From the NCBI RefSeq assembly GCF_024653915.1, contig NZ_JANLGY010000004.1:62001-126000 (forward strand): 64,000 nucleotides of DNA, in the 5' to 3' direction. Positions 6,706 through 30,790 of this stretch are shown piece by piece. The stretch is from Sulfuricaulis sp. GTDB lineage: Bacteria; Pseudomonadota; Gammaproteobacteria; Acidiferrobacterales; Sulfurifustaceae. Both the position numbers and the translations under genes were made by a program. Below the pieces are notes generated by a model. That model ran no database searches and was not told the DNA's origin. It saw only the letters and a program-made list of their open reading frames with translations. Positions within the stretch are counted from its first letter, which is position 1. Every line of letters begins with the position of its first letter.

Positions 6706-7571
6706 ACCAGTCCAAACTGCTCGCGTTACTCGGCATTATTCTGCTGGTGTCGATTACGGCGAAGTCCGCTGTTTATTCGGTGGACGAGCGTGAAAAAGTC
6801 ATCATCGTGCGCTTCGGTCAGGTGCTGCGTTATGACGACGCCCCGGGGATACACTTCAAGACCCCGTTCCTCGATGAGGCGCGTTATTTCGACTCGCGCA
6901 TACTGACCATGGACGCGGAACCGCAACCGTTCCTCACCAAGGAAAAGAAATACGTGGTGGTGGACTCGTTCGTCAAGTGGCGCATCGAGGATGCCCTCAA
7001 ATACTTTCTCACGGTCGGCGGTCAGGAGTCGGACGCGCGCCGGCGTCTGGAGCAGGTTGTCAACAGCGGATTGCGCGATGAATTCGGCAAGCGCGAAGTG
7101 AAGAAAGTCATTTCCGTCGATCGCCACAAGATCATGGAGATACTGACTGAAAACACCGACCGCGAGGCGCGCAAATTCGGTATTGTGGTGGTGGACGTGC
7201 GCATTCAGCGCGTGGATCTGCCGGACGAGGTCAGCCAGTCGGTGTATCAGCGCATGAAGGCGGAACGCTCGCGCATCGCCAACGAATTGCGCGCGCAGGG
7301 CGCGGAGGCGGCGGAGAAGATTCGCGCCAATTCCGAGCGCCAGCGCGAGGTGCTGCTTGCCGAAGCCTACGGCAAGGCCGAGCGGGTTCGCGGCGAGGGC
7401 GATGCGAAGGCGACGGCGCTTTACGGCCAGGCCTACGGGCGCGCGCCGGAATTCTATTCGTTGTATCGCAGTCTCGGCGCCTACAAGGAAAGCTTCAGGA
7501 CAAAAGAAGACATTCTGATCGTGGACCCGAGCTCGGATTTCTTCAAATACATGAAGAAACCCAGCCGCTAA
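6702..7571 (+). CDS. hflC: HflC, SPFH-domain partner of HflK
   Basis: Second subunit of the HflKC complex. 289 residues. One N-terminal membrane anchor (about 5-22), then the SPFH domain beginning DEREKVIIVRFGQVLR, with the HflC-typical PGIHFKTPFLDEARYFDSR block. The C-terminal half is a coiled coil (MKAERSRIANELRAQGAEAA and beyond) followed by a short tail ending in KKPSR. Start ATG overlaps the hflK stop. Followed by a DUF2065 gene, which is the usual neighbour in proteobacteria. Confidence 0.96.
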   Translation: MNQSKLLALLGIILLVSITAKSAVYSVDEREKVIIVRFGQVLRYDDAPGIHFKTPFLDEARYFDSRILTMDAEPQPFLTKEKKYVVVDSFVKWRIEDALKYFLTVGGQESDARRRLEQVVNSGLRDEFGKREVKKVISVDRHKIMEILTENTDREARKFGIVVVDVRIQRVDLPDEVSQSVYQRMKAERSRIANELRAQGAEAAEKIRANSERQREVLLAEAYGKAERVRGEGDAKATALYGQAYGRAPEFYSLYRSLGAYKESFRTKEDILIVDPSSDFFKYMKKPSR

Positions 7572-7593
7572 GCATCCCTGGCCGGAGCGGGCG

Positions 7594-7782
7594 ATGTGGA
7601 ATGAACTGTGGATCGCACTGGCATTACTGCTGATACTGGAAGGCGTTTTTCCCTTTCTCAGCCCGGAAATGGTGCGCAAAGCCCTGGCGGCCATACACCA
7701 GCTGAGCGACTCGCAATTACGCTTCGCGGGTCTGACCAGCATGTTGACCGGCGTGTTATTGCTTTACATCATTAATCGCTAA
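7594..7782 (+). CDS. Small membrane protein, DUF2065 (YjeT-like)
   Basis: A 62-residue protein with two predicted membrane helices (about 5-24 and 42-60) separated by a polar segment (VRKALAAIHQLSDSQLR). Length, topology and the position between hflC and hisZ match the DUF2065/YjeT family, whose function is not established. It lies 22 nt after hflC and 32 nt before hisZ, so it is probably in the hflK operon. The PFLSPEMVRK segment after the first helix is the family's recognisable part. Confidence 0.85.
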   Translation: MWNELWIALALLLILEGVFPFLSPEMVRKALAAIHQLSDSQLRFAGLTSMLTGVLLLYIINR

Positions 7783-7814
7783 CATAAACGTTTCCTGTTT
7801 CGTAATCGCTCATT

Positions 7815-8999
7815 ATGTCAACGAAAGACCGCTGGCTGTTGCCTGATGGTGTCGAAGAAATCCTCCCTGTCGAAGCGCGGCGCGTGGAGAGTCTGCGTCG
7901 CCGGCTGCTCGACCTGTTCGAGACCTGGGGTTATGAATTCGTGATGCCGCCGCTCATTGAGTATCTCGAATCGCTGTTGATCGGAGCGAGCCGCGACCTC
8001 GATCTGCAAACCTTCAAGGTCACGGATCACCTGACCGGACGTCTCATGGGCGTGCGTCCGGACATGACGCCGCAGGCGGCGCGCATCGATGCGCACTATC
8101 TCAAGCGCGGCGCGCCGACGCGTCTGTGCTACATGGGTTCGGTGTTGCGCACGAAACCGGACGGTTTCGGCGGTTCGCGCGAACCGCTGCAACTCGGCGC
8201 CGAGCTTTACGGTCACGCCGGTCCGGATGCCGACGCTGAAATACTGGGGCTCATGATCGAGTCGCTGCGATTGGCGGGCATCCGCGACGCGCATTTTGAT
8301 CTCGGCCACGTCGGCGTGTTCCGCGGGCTGGCCGCGCAGGCAAAGTTGAATGTCGAACAGGAAACGGAATTATTCGAAGCGCTACAGCGCAAGGCGAGCA
8401 ACGATGTCGAGGCCCTGCTGGCGGCCAGCGACGCACCGACGGCTTCGAAGCGCATGTTGGCGGGCCTGCTGGAGCTGAGCGGCGGCGAGGAAGTGCTGGC
8501 GCGCGCCCGCAAGCAGTGTCGTGACGCACCCAAGCCGGTGATTCGTGCGCTTGACGAGCTGCAGGCGGTGGCGGATCGGGTGGCGAAACGCCCTGGCGCG
8601 CCGACGCTGAATTTCGATCTGGCCGAGCTTTCCGGTTATCACTACTACACCGGTGTGGTGTTTTCCGCGTTTGTGCCCGGTTATGGGCAGGCGATTGCAC
8701 GCGGGGGACGCTACGATGGCATTGGACAAGCCTTCGGTCGCGACCGCGCCGCCACCGGTTTCGGCGCGGATCTGCGCCAATGGCTGCGGGTCTCTGCCGC
8801 GACAACGCCGGTGCTCACCGGTGTTCTCGTGTCGAACAGCGACGATTCGGCGTTGCAGGCCGAGACCAGTCGCTTGCGCGCTGAGGGCCAGCGCGTGGTC
8901 ATGCGACTCTCCGGAGACAAATCTCCTGCGTCCGAATTTGGTTGTGACCGTGAACTGGTCAAGAAAAATGGTCGCTGGGTAATTCAATCAGCTAAGTAA
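7815..8999 (+). CDS. hisZ: ATP phosphoribosyltransferase regulatory subunit
   Basis: HisZ resembles histidyl-tRNA synthetase but is catalytically inactive; it pairs with the short form of HisG to make the first enzyme of histidine synthesis. 394 residues. The N terminus WLLPDGVEEILP, the EYLESLL segment and the motif-2-like RPDMTPQAARI are HisZ features, and SGYHYYTGVVFSAF, followed by ARGGRYD, is the class II core. It is about 30 residues shorter than HisRS and lacks the anticodon-binding domain. Its position before purA is the standard proteobacterial arrangement and implies that a short-form hisG lies elsewhere in the genome. Confidence 0.93.
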   Translation: MSTKDRWLLPDGVEEILPVEARRVESLRRRLLDLFETWGYEFVMPPLIEYLESLLIGASRDLDLQTFKVTDHLTGRLMGVRPDMTPQAARIDAHYLKRGAPTRLCYMGSVLRTKPDGFGGSREPLQLGAELYGHAGPDADAEILGLMIESLRLAGIRDAHFDLGHVGVFRGLAAQAKLNVEQETELFEALQRKASNDVEALLAASDAPTASKRMLAGLLELSGGEEVLARARKQCRDAPKPVIRALDELQAVADRVAKRPGAPTLNFDLAELSGYHYYTGVVFSAFVPGYGQAIARGGRYDGIGQAFGRDRAATGFGADLRQWLRVSAATTPVLTGVLVSNSDDSALQAETSRLRAEGQRVVMRLSGDKSPASEFGCDRELVKKNGRWVIQSAK

Positions 9000-9002
9000 T
9001 GA

Positions 9003-10307
<1,305 letters not shown>

Positions 10308-10370
10308 GGATTCCCGTTCGGAGACTTGCTGGTATTATCTGTTGCGGGACAGGAAGTCCCGGATTCAAGA

Positions 10371-10457
<87 letters not shown>

Positions 10458-10519
10458 GTACAGCCCGTGAATTAAACGGGACCCTACAGGACGGCGAACT
10501 CTACCGATAGATAAAATTC

Positions 10520-12796
10520 ATGTCAACGCGAAAACCCAAAAAACCAATTCAAGACCCCATGGCTGAACGGGAGCAACAAAAATACGAACATCCCGTCCCC
10601 AGCCGCGAGGCCATTTCAGCCATGTTGACCGAGCGCAACGAGCCCTTGCCGTTTCAAGAGCTGGCGAATGCGCTGGACGTGCACGGCGAGCGCGATGAGG
10701 ATGCCTTCAACCGTCGCCTGCGCGCGATGGAGCGCGACGGCCAGATCCTGAAAAACCGCCGCGGCCTGTACGGGCTGGCAAACAAGATGGACATGGTCTC
10801 CGGACGCGTCAGCGGTCATCCGGACGGTTTCGGTTTTCTGATTCCCGATGAAGAAGGCGAGGATCTGTTTCTTTCGCCCGGCGAGATGCGCCAGGTGATG
10901 CACGGGGATCGCGTCATGGCGCGCGTGACCGGCGTCGATCAGCGCGGCCGGCGCGAAGGCGCTGTGGTCGAAGTGCTGGAGCGCACGCACAAAACCGTGG
11001 TTGGGCGCTATGTCATGCCGAACGGCGCGGGTTTCGTTGTGCCGGAGAACAAGCGCATCACCCAGGATATCGTGATATCGCGCGGCGACGAAAACGGGGC
11101 AAGGGTTAACCAGATCGTGGTGGCGGAAATCACGTCACCGCCGACACGTCACCGGGCCCCCGCGGGACGCGTGATAGAAGTACTCGGCGATCACATGGCG
11201 CCGGGCATGGAAATCGAGGTTGCCATCCGCGCACACGACATTCCTCACGTCTGGCCGCAAGAGGTGCGAGACGAGGTCGATGGGCTGACGCCACAGGTTC
11301 CCGCGCACGCCAGCGAGGGACGATTCGATCTGCGAGAAATTCCGCTGGTCACGATCGACGGTGAGGACGCGCGTGATTTCGACGATGCCGTATTCGCCGA
11401 ACACGATGGCCGTCAATGGCGGCTGATCGTGGCGATCGCGGACGTATCCTATTATGTTAAACCCGGCACAGCGCTGGACCATGAGGCTTATCAGCGCGGC
11501 AACTCGGTGTATTTCCCGCAAAATGTCATTCCGATGCTGCCGGAAATATTGTCGAACGGTTTGTGCTCGATCAACCCGAAGGTGGACCGTCTGTGCATGG
11601 CCTGCGAAATGCAGATCGATGCCGCCGGCAACATCAGTCGTTATCGGTTTCTCGAGGCGGTCATGCGTTCGCGGGCGCGCCTCACCTACACCAGGGTGGC
11701 GTCCATATTGACGGACAAGGATGCCACGCTGCGGAACGAATATGCCGATGTCGTTCCGCACCTGGAAGCGTTGCATGGCCTTTACAATATTTTGCACACG
11801 TCGCGCATGAAGCGCGGCGCGGTGGATTTCGAGCTGCCGGAAACGCGCATCGTGTTCGACGAGGCCCGCAAGATCCAGCAAATTGTGCCGCAGCAGCGCA
11901 ATGATGCCCATCGTTTGATCGAGGAATGCATGTTGGCGGCCAACGTTTGCGCCGCCGAAATTCTTAAAAAGCACAAAGTGCCTGCGCCGTACCGCATCCA
12001 CGAAGGTCCGACAACAGAGAAATTAAGCAACCTGCGTGAATTCCTTTCCGAAATCGGCCTATCTCTGGCTGGCGGCGATAAACCGCAGGCGCATCATTAT
12101 TCCAAACTCATCAAGCAGGTGGAAAAGCGCACCGACTCGCGCCTGATCCAGACCGTGCTGCTGCGTTCGCTGTCACAGGCGGTGTACAGCCCGGACAACG
12201 TCGGCCACTTCGCGCTGGGTTATCCTAACTACACCCATTTCACCTCACCGATACGCCGCTACCCGGACCTGCTGGTGCATCGCGCCATCAAGGGCATCCT
12301 GGCAAAACGCCCGGCGGAAATTACGCCGGAACTGGCCAAGCAGCAGGGCGAACACTGCTCCCTGACCGAACGCCGCGCTGACGAGGCCACGCGCGAGGTG
12401 ACGCGCTGGCTCAAGGCTGAGTTCATGATGGACAAGATCGGCGAGGAGTTTGACGGCTACATCAGTGGCGTCACTAATTTCGGAATTTTCGTGGAACTGG
12501 TCGAGGTTTACGTGGATGGCCTGGTGCACATCACGGCGCTGGGCAACGATTACTATCATTTCGATGCGGCGCATCATCGCCTGATGGGCGAGCGCACGCG
12601 CCAGATCTACCGTCTGGGTGACAAGGTGCGCGTACGTGTCATGCGCGTGGACCTGGACGAAACCAAGATTGATTTCGAACTGGTCGGGGTGGTAACGGGT
12701 GCCAAAACCGGCAAGGCCCCCAAACAGCGTCGTCCAGAGGCAAAACGTAACGGCAAACCTTCCGGTAAAAAGCGTTCGAGGAAACGCCGGCGCTGA
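10520..12796 (+). CDS. rnr: Ribonuclease R
   Basis: Processive 3'-5' exoribonuclease that can degrade structured RNA. 758 residues. Order of domains: N-terminal winged helix (about 25-85, PSREAISAMLTERNEPL), cold-shock domains (about 90-245), the RNB catalytic domain with the metal-binding DGEDARDFDDAV at about 280-291, an S1 domain (about 635-720, GYISGVTNFGIFVELVEVYVDGLVHI), and a Lys/Arg-rich tail. Shorter than the E. coli enzyme (813) because the basic tail is shorter. The rnr-rlmB pair, one nt apart, is conserved in gammaproteobacteria. No clear Shine-Dalgarno sequence before the ATG. Confidence 0.97.
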   Translation: MSTRKPKKPIQDPMAEREQQKYEHPVPSREAISAMLTERNEPLPFQELANALDVHGERDEDAFNRRLRAMERDGQILKNRRGLYGLANKMDMVSGRVSGHPDGFGFLIPDEEGEDLFLSPGEMRQVMHGDRVMARVTGVDQRGRREGAVVEVLERTHKTVVGRYVMPNGAGFVVPENKRITQDIVISRGDENGARVNQIVVAEITSPPTRHRAPAGRVIEVLGDHMAPGMEIEVAIRAHDIPHVWPQEVRDEVDGLTPQVPAHASEGRFDLREIPLVTIDGEDARDFDDAVFAEHDGRQWRLIVAIADVSYYVKPGTALDHEAYQRGNSVYFPQNVIPMLPEILSNGLCSINPKVDRLCMACEMQIDAAGNISRYRFLEAVMRSRARLTYTRVASILTDKDATLRNEYADVVPHLEALHGLYNILHTSRMKRGAVDFELPETRIVFDEARKIQQIVPQQRNDAHRLIEECMLAANVCAAEILKKHKVPAPYRIHEGPTTEKLSNLREFLSEIGLSLAGGDKPQAHHYSKLIKQVEKRTDSRLIQTVLLRSLSQAVYSPDNVGHFALGYPNYTHFTSPIRRYPDLLVHRAIKGILAKRPAEITPELAKQQGEHCSLTERRADEATREVTRWLKAEFMMDKIGEEFDGYISGVTNFGIFVELVEVYVDGLVHITALGNDYYHFDAAHHRLMGERTRQIYRLGDKVRVRVMRVDLDETKIDFELVGVVTGAKTGKAPKQRRPEAKRNGKPSGKKRSRKRRR

Positions 12797-26007: not shown

Positions 26008-26892
26008 ATGTCCTCCAACGACTCGCGGCGTTTTTACCCAGCCCTGGCCATGATGACCGGCGCCAGCCTGTGGGGCGTGATCTGGTATCCCATGCGCCTG
26101 CTCGAAGGCGGCGGCCTCGGCGGCATCTGGCTTACGCTCACGCTCTATGGTGCCGCGCTCGCCGTGAGCCTGCCGTTCACGCTCAAATCCCTGCCGGAAT
26201 TCACCCGCCAACCCGGCTGGCTGGCGCTGCTGATGCTCTCTGCCGGCTGGACCAACATCGCCTTCGTCGAGGCGGTGCTGGAAGGCAACATCCTGCGCGT
26301 GCTGCTGCTGTTCTATCTGTCGCCGCTGTGGGCCACGCTCATGGCCTGGGCCTTTCTGCGCGAGCACATCACGCGCATGGGGTTTGCGAGCCTCGTCATC
26401 GCCATGGGCGGCGCGCTGCTGATGCTGTGGAATCCCGTCCTCGGCGCGCCCTGGCCGCAGGGCAAGGCCGACTGGATGGCGCTCACGGCGGGTTTCGCCT
26501 TCGCGCTGTCCAACACCGTCACGCGCAAGCTGCACGACGTGTCCATCGAGGCGAAAGTTTTATCCGTCTGGGCCGGCGTCACGATTGTGGCGCTGGTCAT
26601 GATCGCGATGTTTTCCCTGCCTATGCCGCAACCATCGCTCACCATCTTTACTGGTGCCGTGGCGCTCGGCGTGTTCGGTATCCTGCTCATGACATTGCTG
26701 GTGCAGTATGGTGTGACGCACATGCCTGTGCATCGTTCGGCGGTGTTGGCTTTGATCGAGCTTGTCGCTGGCGCGATCGCGCAGCAACTTCTTACAGACG
26801 AGATTGTTACGGTGAGGGAGTGGATAGGGGGAGGGTTGATTGTGATTGGGGCTTATCTGTCGGCGAGGGCTTCATCGCCGAGGGATTATTAG
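26008..26892 (+). CDS. DMT-superfamily (EamA) transporter
   Basis: 294 residues with about ten hydrophobic segments, arranged as two EamA repeats (about 10-145 and 155-285). Membrane drug/metabolite transporter; the substrate cannot be read from sequence. Hydrophobic stretches include WLALLMLSAGWTNIAFVEAV and LVIAMGGALLMLW. It is GC-rich like the housekeeping genes. Divergent from dapC and convergent with the AT-richer GHKL gene 15 nt away. A role in amino-acid or metabolite export is a guess. Confidence 0.88.
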   Translation: MSSNDSRRFYPALAMMTGASLWGVIWYPMRLLEGGGLGGIWLTLTLYGAALAVSLPFTLKSLPEFTRQPGWLALLMLSAGWTNIAFVEAVLEGNILRVLLLFYLSPLWATLMAWAFLREHITRMGFASLVIAMGGALLMLWNPVLGAPWPQGKADWMALTAGFAFALSNTVTRKLHDVSIEAKVLSVWAGVTIVALVMIAMFSLPMPQPSLTIFTGAVALGVFGILLMTLLVQYGVTHMPVHRSAVLALIELVAGAIAQQLLTDEIVTVREWIGGGLIVIGAYLSARASSPRDY

Positions 26893-26907
26893 TCGATCTG
26901 CCTTCCT

Positions 26908-28893
26908 TTACGTTGTAGCTACTTCTTCCGTGGTCTCCTCAGTCAATACCCCTTTAAGGAATTTTGCATAGTGTTCCTGGAGATGCTTCAAGGATGCGCC
27001 TTTGTCAGCTTGGTATTCGAGGCTCTCTTGGAAGAACTGTAGCCGAGCGCGGTTCTGGTTGAGGACCTGCGCCCAAGTCTTAACATAAATTGAGCAGTTG
27101 TCCTTAGTGTGAATCCTACCGTTATTATTACTATCAGTCATCCGATACGATGCATAATCGCCATAGTCGTCGCTGATCACCCAGAAAACCCAATTCGTGT
27201 TCACACTACGAAAGCGCTCATCCTTAGTGACCGAGATTGTGTATTCTTCGATCTGCGTGATCTCTTTCTGGTTGATCTTGACTTTTGGTGCCTTAAGTTC
27301 GACGACAAGATGAGTCAATTCGTCCGCCTTATGGTGGCGGATTGAGCGTGAAAGCATCAAATCGATTATGCCGCGCTCTTTGGAGATGTGCTTTACGGGA
27401 TCATTGATTACAATGTCGTCCCCGAGGATTTTTCGGTGTTTGCGAAGAACCTCAGTAAGGGACTGATCATCAACCGAGAGGTTGTATTCCTCGCCGAATA
27501 GCCAGCAGTTCTCTGCGATGATGCGATGAAGTTGAGAGCGTTCCTTGAGCCGCTTCTTGCTATCGGCATCGAAAAGAATCGCTTCGAGTCCGGTAAGAAA
27601 CTTCAGCCGATCAGCAACGATCTTTGCCGCGCTGATGATCGAGGACAACGATACATCTCGCAGCAGTTCCGCAAGCTCTTCTTGTTTGCGTTTGGGGAGC
27701 TTGAGAACCTCTCCGAGGATGAGTTGAAGCTCTTCCGGACTTTTCTCGATCGCCTGCCGTAGCAAGCGCAGATGAAATGCCTTATTTTTCGTTGGTGTTG
27801 TCTCAAATTCGGGAATGTACTGAGCGACGTTCACGGCAACGATATCGAAGACTTGTCGCTCGACGTGTTCAACATTAGTCACGGCTTCCCCCTCATAGGG
27901 ATAAATCTTCTCTTCTTTCCAATCTTCAACAACTGTCTTCGCTTCCTGTGCAGCACGATTACGAAAGTAATCTCTGATTGCCTGTTGCGCTTCATCGATC
28001 ACAGCGATAACGGCCGAATTCATCTCAGCTAGCTCAAGCGTTCCTTCTTTCTGGAGTTTTGAAATATATGAGGATTTTAGGTAAGCAGAGAATTGATAAT
28101 TTCCGGTATGAAAACGCCGTTCCACTTGCGTTAATGGAAAACCCTTCTCATTACAGAGGTAAAGTGCTCGGCTGGTCACGGCACGCCATTCGATGATCTC
28201 CAGCCGTATTGGGTAGTTTTTGTCTTCTTCACTAATGTCGCTGAGATTGACTGTATGGCGAGAAGCAATTGCTTTATCTGGGTCGATCTGGGTTGAATCA
28301 ACTACTATCGAAATACCTTGATAGTCAGCCAAGTACAATGCAAAGATTTCTGTGAATTCTTGGATACCCGTTTCGGAGGTAATGGAACGGTAATCCTTAT
28401 GAAGCTCGGAGATAGTGAGAGTAACACCTCGCTTTTTTTCTTCAGGTGCTTTTGCTTCATCTGAAATGCGGACTTCCTGAATTTTGCCGGCGTTCATCGT
28501 AATCTTGAACGTCGACAGTTCATCCCCTTTGGGGTAGGTCACATCCCATTCCGCAAAACGACCGAGGGAAAAAGCCTTAAACCGGCCGCGACCGTCCTGA
28601 CCGTGCAGAAAACGGCCGTCTTTCTTTGTAACTGCACCAGGCCGCTTCCATGATCCACCGAGTTTTTTGAATAGCTCAGGGGCATCGGAAAAGGGCATTC
28701 CAAGACCATTGTCGGTGATAACAATAGCTGACATTGCATTGAGGTCGTTGTACTCAATGCGCACATCAATCGACGTTGCATCAGCGTCGAGCCCGTTCCA
28801 GATAAACTCCGCTACAGCCTGCACAGGCTGTGCCCGTGTTATCTTTTCTAAGAAATCCGACTGAACTTCGACGGGATAGGCGTGATCAGTCAT
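26908..28893 (-). CDS. GHKL (MORC/Hsp90-like) ATPase with C-terminal PD-(D/E)XK-like nuclease domain
   Basis: 661 residues. The N-terminal ATPase has an N box (E29 and N33 in AEFIWNGLDADAT), the G1 motif TDNGLGM (60-66) and the G2 motif GQDGRGR (98-104), the Bergerat fold of MutL, Hsp90 and MORC. A middle part (about 220-480) is mostly charged helices. The C-terminal region has the pattern IIDLML (D511), VVELKAP (E532, K534) and QIEEY, typical of PD-(D/E)XK nucleases. The gene is visibly AT-richer than its neighbours (one 60-base line in it is 42% GC against 67% in the adjacent transporter) and stands alone, so it was probably acquired. MORC-like ATPases fused or linked to nucleases are known from restriction and phage-defence loci; a defence role here is inference. 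No Shine-Dalgarno sequence was seen. The 229-nt gap to the next gene contains only a small hairpin, CCTCC/GGAGG, near 28981. Confidence 0.8.
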   Translation of the reverse strand: MTDHAYPVEVQSDFLEKITRAQPVQAVAEFIWNGLDADATSIDVRIEYNDLNAMSAIVITDNGLGMPFSDAPELFKKLGGSWKRPGAVTKKDGRFLHGQDGRGRFKAFSLGRFAEWDVTYPKGDELSTFKITMNAGKIQEVRISDEAKAPEEKKRGVTLTISELHKDYRSITSETGIQEFTEIFALYLADYQGISIVVDSTQIDPDKAIASRHTVNLSDISEEDKNYPIRLEIIEWRAVTSRALYLCNEKGFPLTQVERRFHTGNYQFSAYLKSSYISKLQKEGTLELAEMNSAVIAVIDEAQQAIRDYFRNRAAQEAKTVVEDWKEEKIYPYEGEAVTNVEHVERQVFDIVAVNVAQYIPEFETTPTKNKAFHLRLLRQAIEKSPEELQLILGEVLKLPKRKQEELAELLRDVSLSSIISAAKIVADRLKFLTGLEAILFDADSKKRLKERSQLHRIIAENCWLFGEEYNLSVDDQSLTEVLRKHRKILGDDIVINDPVKHISKERGIIDLMLSRSIRHHKADELTHLVVELKAPKVKINQKEITQIEEYTISVTKDERFRSVNTNWVFWVISDDYGDYASYRMTDSNNNGRIHTKDNCSIYVKTWAQVLNQNRARLQFFQESLEYQADKGASLKHLQEHYAKFLKGVLTEETTEEVATT

Positions 28894-29122
28894 GATGCTG
28901 TATGCTTTTCATTTTTTCATCCTTGCGCCCGCATAATCTCCTCGGCTCGATATTTTCCACTAATTATTAGAACTCTGATACCTCCCTATTCGGAGGCCTA
29001 ATTTTGTAAGCAATTCGCTGATTAACAGCAATTTATGACGGTAGGATTTGTTCATCGCCGCCACTGGCGATTCGCTAAATTTACATGCAATATCATGATC
29101 TCAACCACCAAGGAGCACGACG

Positions 29123-29236
29123 ATGAGCAAAGGCATGGACAGTAAGAAGCAGACCAAGAAGGAACCGGCCAAGACCATGAAGGAAAAACGCGCGGAGAAG
29201 CGGGCCAAGAAGGCGGCGCGGGGCGGCATGGCTTAG
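29123..29236 (+). CDS. Small Lys-rich protein, unknown function
   Basis: 37 residues: MSKGMDSKKQTKKEP, then AKTMKEKRAEKRAKK and AARGGMA. AAGGAG lies 9 nt before the ATG, an excellent ribosome site, and the product is strongly basic with a predicted helix. Similar short proteins starting MSKG.DSKK occur in many proteobacteria as I recall, but no function is known. Followed 50 nt later by a DoxX gene. It may bind nucleic acid through its charge, which is speculation. Confidence 0.65.
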   Translation: MSKGMDSKKQTKKEPAKTMKEKRAEKRAKKAARGGMA

Positions 29237-30295: not shown

Positions 30296-30523
30296 CTACG
30301 CCCGTTTCAGCAGGAACTCGAAATTACCCTCGGCATTTTCTTTCGACTCCAGCATGGTGTTCCCGGTTTTCTTTGCATAGGCCTTGAAGTCCGGTAACGA
30401 GCCGGGGTCCGTCGTGAGGACGCGCAGCGTCTGTCCGCTTGCCATGGTTTCCATCTTTTTCTTCATACGCATGACGGGTATCGGGCAATTCAATCCACGC
30501 AAGTCCAGATCATGGTCAGCCAT
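30296..30523 (-). CDS. TusA-family sulfur-carrier protein, copy 2
   Basis: 75 residues from the internal ATG at 30523, preceded by GGGAGAAG. The CPxP motif with the sulfur-accepting Cys is in LRGLNCPIPVMRMKKKM; the fold is the beta-alpha-beta of TusA/SirA. It could relay persulfide sulfur to tRNA thiolation, molybdopterin, or a dissimilatory sulfur pathway. It is 61% identical (46 of 75 by eye) to the next gene, which lies 39 nt upstream, so they are a tandem duplicate. The downstream part of the two proteins ends in FEFLLKR. Confidence 0.88.
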   Translation of the reverse strand: MADHDLDLRGLNCPIPVMRMKKKMETMASGQTLRVLTTDPGSLPDFKAYAKKTGNTMLESKENAEGNFEFLLKRA

Positions 30524-30562
30524 CGTTGCTTCTCCCGTTACAAGCAAGTAACTCCAATATTC

Positions 30563-30790
30563 TTACACCCGTTTCAGCAAGAACTCGAACTCGCCAGCGG
30601 GGGTCTTCTTCGATTCGAGCAGCACATTGCCTGAACCTCTGGCATAGGCGTCGAAGTCTATGACCGTCGCGGGATCTGTCGCCAATACACGTAAAGTCTG
30701 GCCAACCTTTATGGTCAGCATTAGTTTCGCCGTGCGCATGACAGGCAGTGGGCAAGTCAGTCCACGCGCGTCGAGTTCTTGATCAGCCAT
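30563..30790 (-). CDS. TusA-family sulfur-carrier protein, copy 1
   Basis: 75 residues. GGGGAGG lies upstream of the ATG. The motif LTCPLPVMRTAKLM holds the catalytic Cys. TusA proteins carry persulfide sulfur in the cytoplasm. First of two tandem copies; the leader contains an inverted repeat at 30826-30841 that may be an operator. No dsr, sox, hdr or rhodanese gene is next to the pair, so its pathway cannot be named. Confidence 0.88.
   Translation of the reverse strand: MADQELDARGLTCPLPVMRTAKLMLTIKVGQTLRVLATDPATVIDFDAYARGSGNVLLESKKTPAGEFEFLLKRV

Follow-up and report, generated by a model that had tools for sequence, protein, structure and literature searches.

The family closest in architecture to the protein analysed here was described as paraMORC3, in which a GHKL domain is combined with an S5 module and a C-terminal restriction endonuclease (RE)-fold domain carrying E-D-ExK (Iyer, Abhiman and Aravind, 2008; PMC2292703). 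The same paper describes restriction-modification (R-M) neighbourhoods for these families, along with one subset of paraMORC3 that is standalone (Iyer et al., 2008; PMC2292703). VcSduA, which joins a GHKL ATPase to a PD-(D/E)xK nuclease, confers on E. coli protection from Drexlerviridae and on V. cholerae protection from phage X29; this protection is reported to hold at every MOI examined, and is abolished by either the E27A or the K557A mutation (Adams et al., 2025; PMC12137116). Adams et al. place VcSduA in Shedu type I-D and mention that such GHKL-nuclease proteins were earlier annotated as paraMORC3 (PMC12137116). According to a 2026 review, E. coli Shedu uses an N-terminal clamp to sense DNA ends (PMC12904381).

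The window, which is the whole 64,000-nucleotide stretch of Sulfuricaulis sp. DNA analysed here, carries on its reverse strand (26908–28893) a gene for a 661-amino acid, paraMORC3-like GHKL ATPase-nuclease, identified by ORF calling, Pfam and alignment. The encoded protein is a member of the paraMORC3 family, with an architecture that is already known. It contains a GHKL domain with ATP-binding motifs, an S5-type domain and a C-terminal RE-fold domain with E-D-ExK, and the MORC motif is absent: the MORC-specific GhXhhpXXRhl motif of the S5 domain is found in none of the 60 rows of our two alignments, which have two rows in common. A sporadic spread, with some members standalone and some beside R-M genes, is a further likeness to paraMORC3, and there is no difference in the features compared, the match being to the 2008 description of the family. 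The likeness to VcSduA as reported includes an N-terminal GHKL ATPase, a C-terminal PD-(D/E)xK nuclease, a single gene and a mobile location, whereas DUF4263, reported for VcSduA, is not found by Pfam in the window protein, VcSduA being compared here by its published description (PMC12137116). Spacing of the catalytic residues was considered as another link to VcSduA and rejected, as E27 and K557 of VcSduA lie 530 residues apart (PMC12137116), compared to 505 for the corresponding pair in the window protein and 500–509 in the 18 rows measured. Because the SduA_C signature was searched and gave no match, we file the protein as paraMORC3 and term it Shedu-like.

Domain architecture, active sites and predicted folds

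Profile searches locate both enzymatic halves of the protein. Pfam assigns HATPase_c_3 to residues 25–142 (E = 2.4e-13) and gives a sub-threshold match to the nuclease model HSDR_N_2 at residues 479–554 (E = 5.9e-5), and phrog_6203, a PHROG family of unknown function, spans residues 23–635 (E = 3e-74). PADLOC returns weak matches only, two REase_II models falling in the ATPase region and PDC-M02A on residues 510–544. A sequence search of the PDB with the full protein yields GHKL matches alone, all weak (best E = 0.013), and the C-terminal profile has no PDB match at E up to 10; Rfam has none between 26 and 33 kb of the window.

The GHKL/Bergerat ATPase domain covers approximately residues 9–205 (28279–28869, reverse strand) and houses E29/N33, D61-x-G63-x-G65 and the lid H97-G98...G101-x-G103-R104. 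It is followed in the AlphaFold model by an S5-like transducer and a helical middle region, approximately residues 206–412 (27658–28278, reverse strand). The C-terminal PD-(D/E)XK nuclease domain, modelled as residues 416–661 (26911–27648, reverse strand), has a Shedu-like fold according to the model and profile comparison, and includes the nuclease motif D511...E532-x-K534 (27292–27363, reverse strand), invariant in 42 of 42 aligned rows.

A closer look at the motifs shows how strictly both active sites are conserved. E29/N33, TDNGLGM (60–66), GQDGRGR (98–104), D511, E532-x-K534 and Q547-x3-Y551 are all invariant across an 18-row full-length alignment in which identity goes down to 21%. In a second alignment of 42 rows, which has two rows in common with the first and likewise includes the window protein, N33, D61, G98, R104, E451, D511, E532, K534, Q547 and Y551 are kept throughout, and E29 is present in 41 rows, the remaining row having a gap. 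As the motifs are invariant in both alignments, apart from this gap at E29, they are not chance occurrences. E451 is a further invariant and supplies the first acidic residue, completing the E-D-ExK site. The sequence-only reading of this DNA had recognised a GHKL ATPase fused to a PD-(D/E)XK nuclease, and its open reading frame, strand and motifs are borne out by these alignments. It is to be corrected in that the fusion had already been described as paraMORC3, and the related VcSduA already tested against phages, according to the papers cited above (PMC2292703; PMC12137116).

A full-length AlphaFold2 model built on the 42-row alignment has a pLDDT of 81 and a pTM of 0.54. Its N-terminal part matches the ATPases of MORC2 (Z = 17.5), TRAP1 (17.4) and SMCHD1 (16.9) over residues 9–318, and some TRAP1/Hsp90 rows align out to model residue 416. 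In the predicted structure, the GHKL domain is followed by the S5-type domain, within the stretch aligned to the ATPase modules of MORC2, TRAP1 and SMCHD1; Foldseek also matches the model to MutL structures. The likeness to MORC2 and other MORC ATPases, to MutL and to TRAP1 thus lies in the fold of the ATPase and transducer. The window family differs from MORC proteins in lacking their S5 motif (0/60 rows), and from MutL in that the NCBIfam MutL models score at best 31.7 bits, far below their cut-off of 180.

A separate model of the C-terminal domain (residues 416–661) has a pLDDT of 83 and a pTM of 0.82. In VIA-align, its top structural matches are E. coli SduA (PDB 8ps4, Z = 10.2; 8ps5, Z = 10.1) and B. 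cereus Shedu (8ti9, Z = 9.8; 8ti8, Z = 9.5), with 8ps4 superposing over 168 residues (rmsd 3.9) and 8ps5 over 167. The nickase N.BspD6I (Z = 9.1), EndoMS/NucS (8.6 and 8.4) and FokI (7.8) come after Shedu, and since N.BspD6I is next at 9.1, the second to fourth rows are best read as tied with it. Foldseek's own ranking is led by MspJI and NucS/EndoMS (E = 6e-4 and 9e-4), with no Shedu chain in the best 50 rows. The PD-(D/E)XK nuclease fold of this domain is well supported by the model, and the non-nuclease fold that would speak against the earlier proposal was not seen. Shedu may be its closest solved relative, supported by a margin that is not wide; the orders given by VIA-align and Foldseek differ.

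Relation to Shedu proteins

The window protein differs from Shedu SduA in its N-terminal part, a GHKL ATPase, in the missing Pfam SduA_C signature, and in the absence of Shedu from the best 50 Foldseek rows. A search with Pfam SduA_C/DUF4263 (PF14082) at a limit of E = 10 matches neither the protein nor anything else in its own genome, with the hmmscan filters dropping most SduA_C matches above approximately 0.1 despite this limit. The same model matches 4/143 genomes of the class sample and 17/398 of the phylum sample, from which 20 distinct SduA_C loci were considered. Twelve of the 17 non-fusion, Shedu-type loci went into a Shedu alignment, and the three GHKL fusions into a second one; five loci (L075, L168, L170, L171 and L172) were excluded as partial or atypical.

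Profile-profile comparison detects what the Pfam search does not. In hhalign, the C-terminal family aligns to the 12 Shedu proteins with E = 7e-7 and a probability of 92, and to the three GHKL-SduA_C-like fusions with E = 1.3e-14, these E-values, like the one that follows, being for a single comparison. The full-length profile aligns to the same fusions over 539 columns with E = 1e-29, to which the common GHKL domain contributes. Homology of the window protein to Shedu proteins is, on these profiles, detectable, and the Pfam Shedu profile misses its branch.

The three fusions (L076, 1192–3171; L173, 100–1944; L174, 1321–3090) represent a sister architecture, GHKL with a Shedu-like domain. The L076 protein matches SduA_C with E = 3.5e-5 and 24.5 bits, under the cut-off of 27, in an hmmscan run on this locus only; in the genome search, L173 is just above the SduA_C cut-off and L174 under it. 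The GHKL motifs of L173 and L174 were read from the alignment.

The insertion slot and acquisition of the gene

The gene lies in a segment of approximately 2.16 kb (26893–29053), apparently inserted, that holds this one gene. To its left is an EamA transporter gene (26008–26892, forward strand; identified by Pfam and the genus/family search), matched in 13/13 genus/family genomes, the own genome included and two (G001 and G003) with fragments only. In the congener G002 (L037), the EamA gene is followed by 59 bp and then by the segment that starts at 29054 in the window, so this is an empty site. The slot of another congener, G005 (L051), is filled by 3.6 kb of different genes, and that of G008 by approximately 2.1 kb of yet different ORFs; in G006 the gene order at the slot differs. 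The G005 cargo (L051, 7182–10120) encodes a UbiE-like methyltransferase, a TfoX_N protein, and two proteins of 179 and 295 amino acids that have no Pfam match, the larger of which has a VECKR motif and is possibly a nuclease. On the right, the edge of the variable slot is marked in the congener comparison by a conserved ORF for a lysine-rich protein of 37 amino acids (29123–29236, forward strand; MSKGMDSKKQTKK...), which is kept in the window and in 4 of 6 congener loci, the other two contigs ending nearby, and is missing from the three loci of other genera.

The edges of the insert show no visible target-site duplication. A 10-nt direct repeat, TTCATCGCCG (26871 and 29051), was considered as one and rejected, because similar sequence flanks the empty site on both sides too. 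There is no integrase among the six neighbours scanned with Pfam, and the sole tRNA in the window lies at 10371–10457. A scan for sigma-70-like promoters near the gene found none, with 2.6 expected by chance, and is therefore uninformative. Two adjacent ORFs further along (30296–30547 and 30563–30790, reverse strand) appear by eye to be tandem TusA paralogues; the second, the only one scanned, matches PF01206. The absence of a partner gene noted in the sequence-only reading stands locally, as neither the Pfam scan of six neighbours nor the 17 probe proteins revealed an adjoining R-M or defence gene, and it does not extend to the family, since some relatives lie in or at the end of R-M operons.

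The composition of the gene sets it apart from its surroundings. Its GC (0.474) and GC3 (0.512) are the lowest of 41 window ORFs, itself included, these being the mechanically chosen, non-overlapping ORFs of at least 200 amino acids. Compared to the other 40, with means of 0.596 and 0.716, the z-scores are −5.1 for GC and −3.8 for GC3, and only one ORF of at least 300 amino acids has a larger codon-usage distance, which upholds the earlier remark that the gene is AT-richer than its neighbours. The protein has no match in the eight other genomes of the genus, nor in any of 59 relatives, 36 of them with a completeness of 90% or more. Conservation throughout the relatives with normal composition, which would have spoken against acquisition, is thus not what was seen. 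In the class sample, 21/369 genomes match at E = 1e-3, nine of them (own genome included) over most of the length and 12 in the ATPase region only, and in the phylum sample the family profile matches 12/398 genomes at 1e-20. The gene has apparently been acquired horizontally, as single-gene cargo.

Settings of the relatives and candidate functions

The nearest intact relative is from Propionivibrio (L001, 63%) and is sister to the window protein with support 100/99 in a 31-row tree from which the Paraburkholderia copy was left out. There, the paraMORC3 gene closes a type I cluster that also contains two hsdM genes (the second recognised by a probe match), hsdS and hsdR, and lies 63 bp downstream of hsdR. 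R-M genes of several types are found next to other relatives. On a Phaeobacter plasmid (L025), the gene overlaps that of a type ISP restriction enzyme by 4 bp. In L059 (G387), a DNA methylase and a ResIII helicase, a type III-like res, are followed by the relative 120 bp after res, and in L061 (G225) the relative has hsdS on one side and, on the other, an AlbA_2 gene followed by hsdR. A Psychrobacter plasmid (L027) has an annotated LlaMI-family restriction endonuclease gene 187 bp away, with an annotated cytosine methylase gene adjoining too and drt2 nearby, and the relative on a Deinococcus plasmid has an annotated DNA methyltransferase gene at a distance of 1.5 kb.

Two relatives have defence genes of other kinds close by. 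In L062 (G068, 6732–10765) a Shedu gene (SduA_C, E = 1.1e-27) is convergent with the paraMORC3 relative at a distance of 689 bp, and on a Bradyrhizobium plasmid (L030) an AbiJ-type gene lies 415 bp from it. An HNH endonuclease gene is found beyond the Shedu/paraMORC3 pair of L062. Related large helicase-like genes, possible partners, lie near the relatives on a Paracoccus versutus plasmid (L177, 7941–14601) and in L030 (4019–10031), on opposite sides.

Within approximately 3 kb, an R-M gene is present at 6 of 30 genome, plasmid and phage-record loci, and a methylase-like ORF on 2 of 53 viral contigs, with probes that come partly from the same loci, so that R-M types unlike these can escape. 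The 30 loci are two phage records, 18 of 50 plasmid records, eight full-length class-sample matches from other genomes and two further loci; 12 ATPase-only class-sample matches and the 4–5 kb loci of the phylum sample stay outside this count, and four plasmid relatives added later changed the R-M share from 6/26 to 6/30. All 53 viral contigs are counted, many of them with short flanks and some near-duplicates. In 36 of the 50 plasmid records with relatives, a single place accounts for at least 80% of the query. The two phage records are Pasteurella phages Pmp3 and Pmp14 (L024 and L148), in which the relatives are cargo within the tail gene region. T4SS regions and Streptomyces plasmids are other settings in which no R-M match was seen. 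Most of the relatives seen, whether on a plasmid, in a prophage or in a chromosome, lie apart from R-M genes. Some plasmid copies are damaged (L149, L150, L155, L175 and L176), being cut or interrupted beside IS3, IS21 or IS5, or split over two frames as on a Paraburkholderia hospita plasmid (L175, 61%), whose copy is almost as near to the window protein as that of L001 and where no R-M match is nearby. These copies suggest repeated loss of the gene.

We consider it probable that the product of the window gene is an ATP-gated DNA nuclease of the paraMORC3 type, that the gene arrived by horizontal transfer as a single-gene cargo, and that its role is, most likely, to restrict phage or other foreign DNA. 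The single-gene defence nuclease that the sequence-only reading had in mind is, going by the sequence comparisons and models, still the most likely role. We infer that the window copy would be active against phages through closure of a dimer, gated by ATP and set off by a trigger, with DNA as the substrate. Binding of ATP would close the two subunits as a clamp through their N-terminal GHKL domains, and the state of the clamp would be passed on by the S5/middle region to the C-terminal Shedu-like PD-(D/E)XK domain, where DNA may be cut at the site formed by E451, D511, E532 and K534.

A broader picture of the subfamily can be drawn tentatively, and we think it rather doubtful. It would be a Shedu-fold branch that the Shedu profile does not see. 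Through its GHKL clamp, one enzyme could serve as an additional subunit in type I, ISP and type III-like restriction operons, and elsewhere it would move about unaccompanied, in phages, plasmids and chromosomal slots; solo copies such as the window gene would monitor foreign DNA with the help of unlinked R-M systems. Somewhat less likely still is that the window protein is an accessory R-M subunit, a solo copy that acts in trans for one of the unlinked R-M systems of the cell, a possibility raised by Iyer et al. (2008; PMC2292703). The own genome does have two matches to the HsdM family PF02384 (C4:182894–183880 and C13:216743–217666) and one N6_N4 methylase match, none of them beside the window gene, and the place of the L001 gene 63 bp after hsdR, along with the type ISP, type III-like and type I settings of L025, L059 and L061, fits a subunit. 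However, 24/30 loci and 51/53 viral contigs have no R-M match within approximately 3 kb, and the R-M type is not the same in the different relatives, a pattern easier to reconcile with an independent nuclease accompanying R-M genes than with a dedicated subunit.

A MutL-like enzyme of DNA repair or maintenance, in place of defence, is very improbable. MutL is among the Foldseek matches, the mismatch endonuclease NucS/EndoMS is among the C-terminal fold matches, and NCBIfam MutL models touch the ATPase region, but they score far under their cut-off (31.7 against 180 bits), and a gene that matches in 0/59 relatives, is patchy in the class sample and is borne by phages and plasmids is unlike a housekeeping repair gene. 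That the gene is an acquired passenger without function has just as slim a chance, for the reading frame is intact and all invariant active-site residues are kept, even though no partner was recognised, the uninformative promoter scan gave no match, and some plasmid relatives are broken by IS elements or split over two frames.

For the paraMORC3 family, the addition made here is a small one, consisting of the link of this branch to Shedu, its invisibility to the Pfam profile, the R-M operon of L001 and a clean empty site. The window gene offers a clean single-gene case, with the empty site in the congener G002. Profile comparison and predicted structure connect to Shedu a family that has seen few tests since it was named in 2008. 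As this type of protein is found in several kinds of restriction operon and alone in prophages, the question of whether it is an R-M subunit or an independent nuclease is directly testable.
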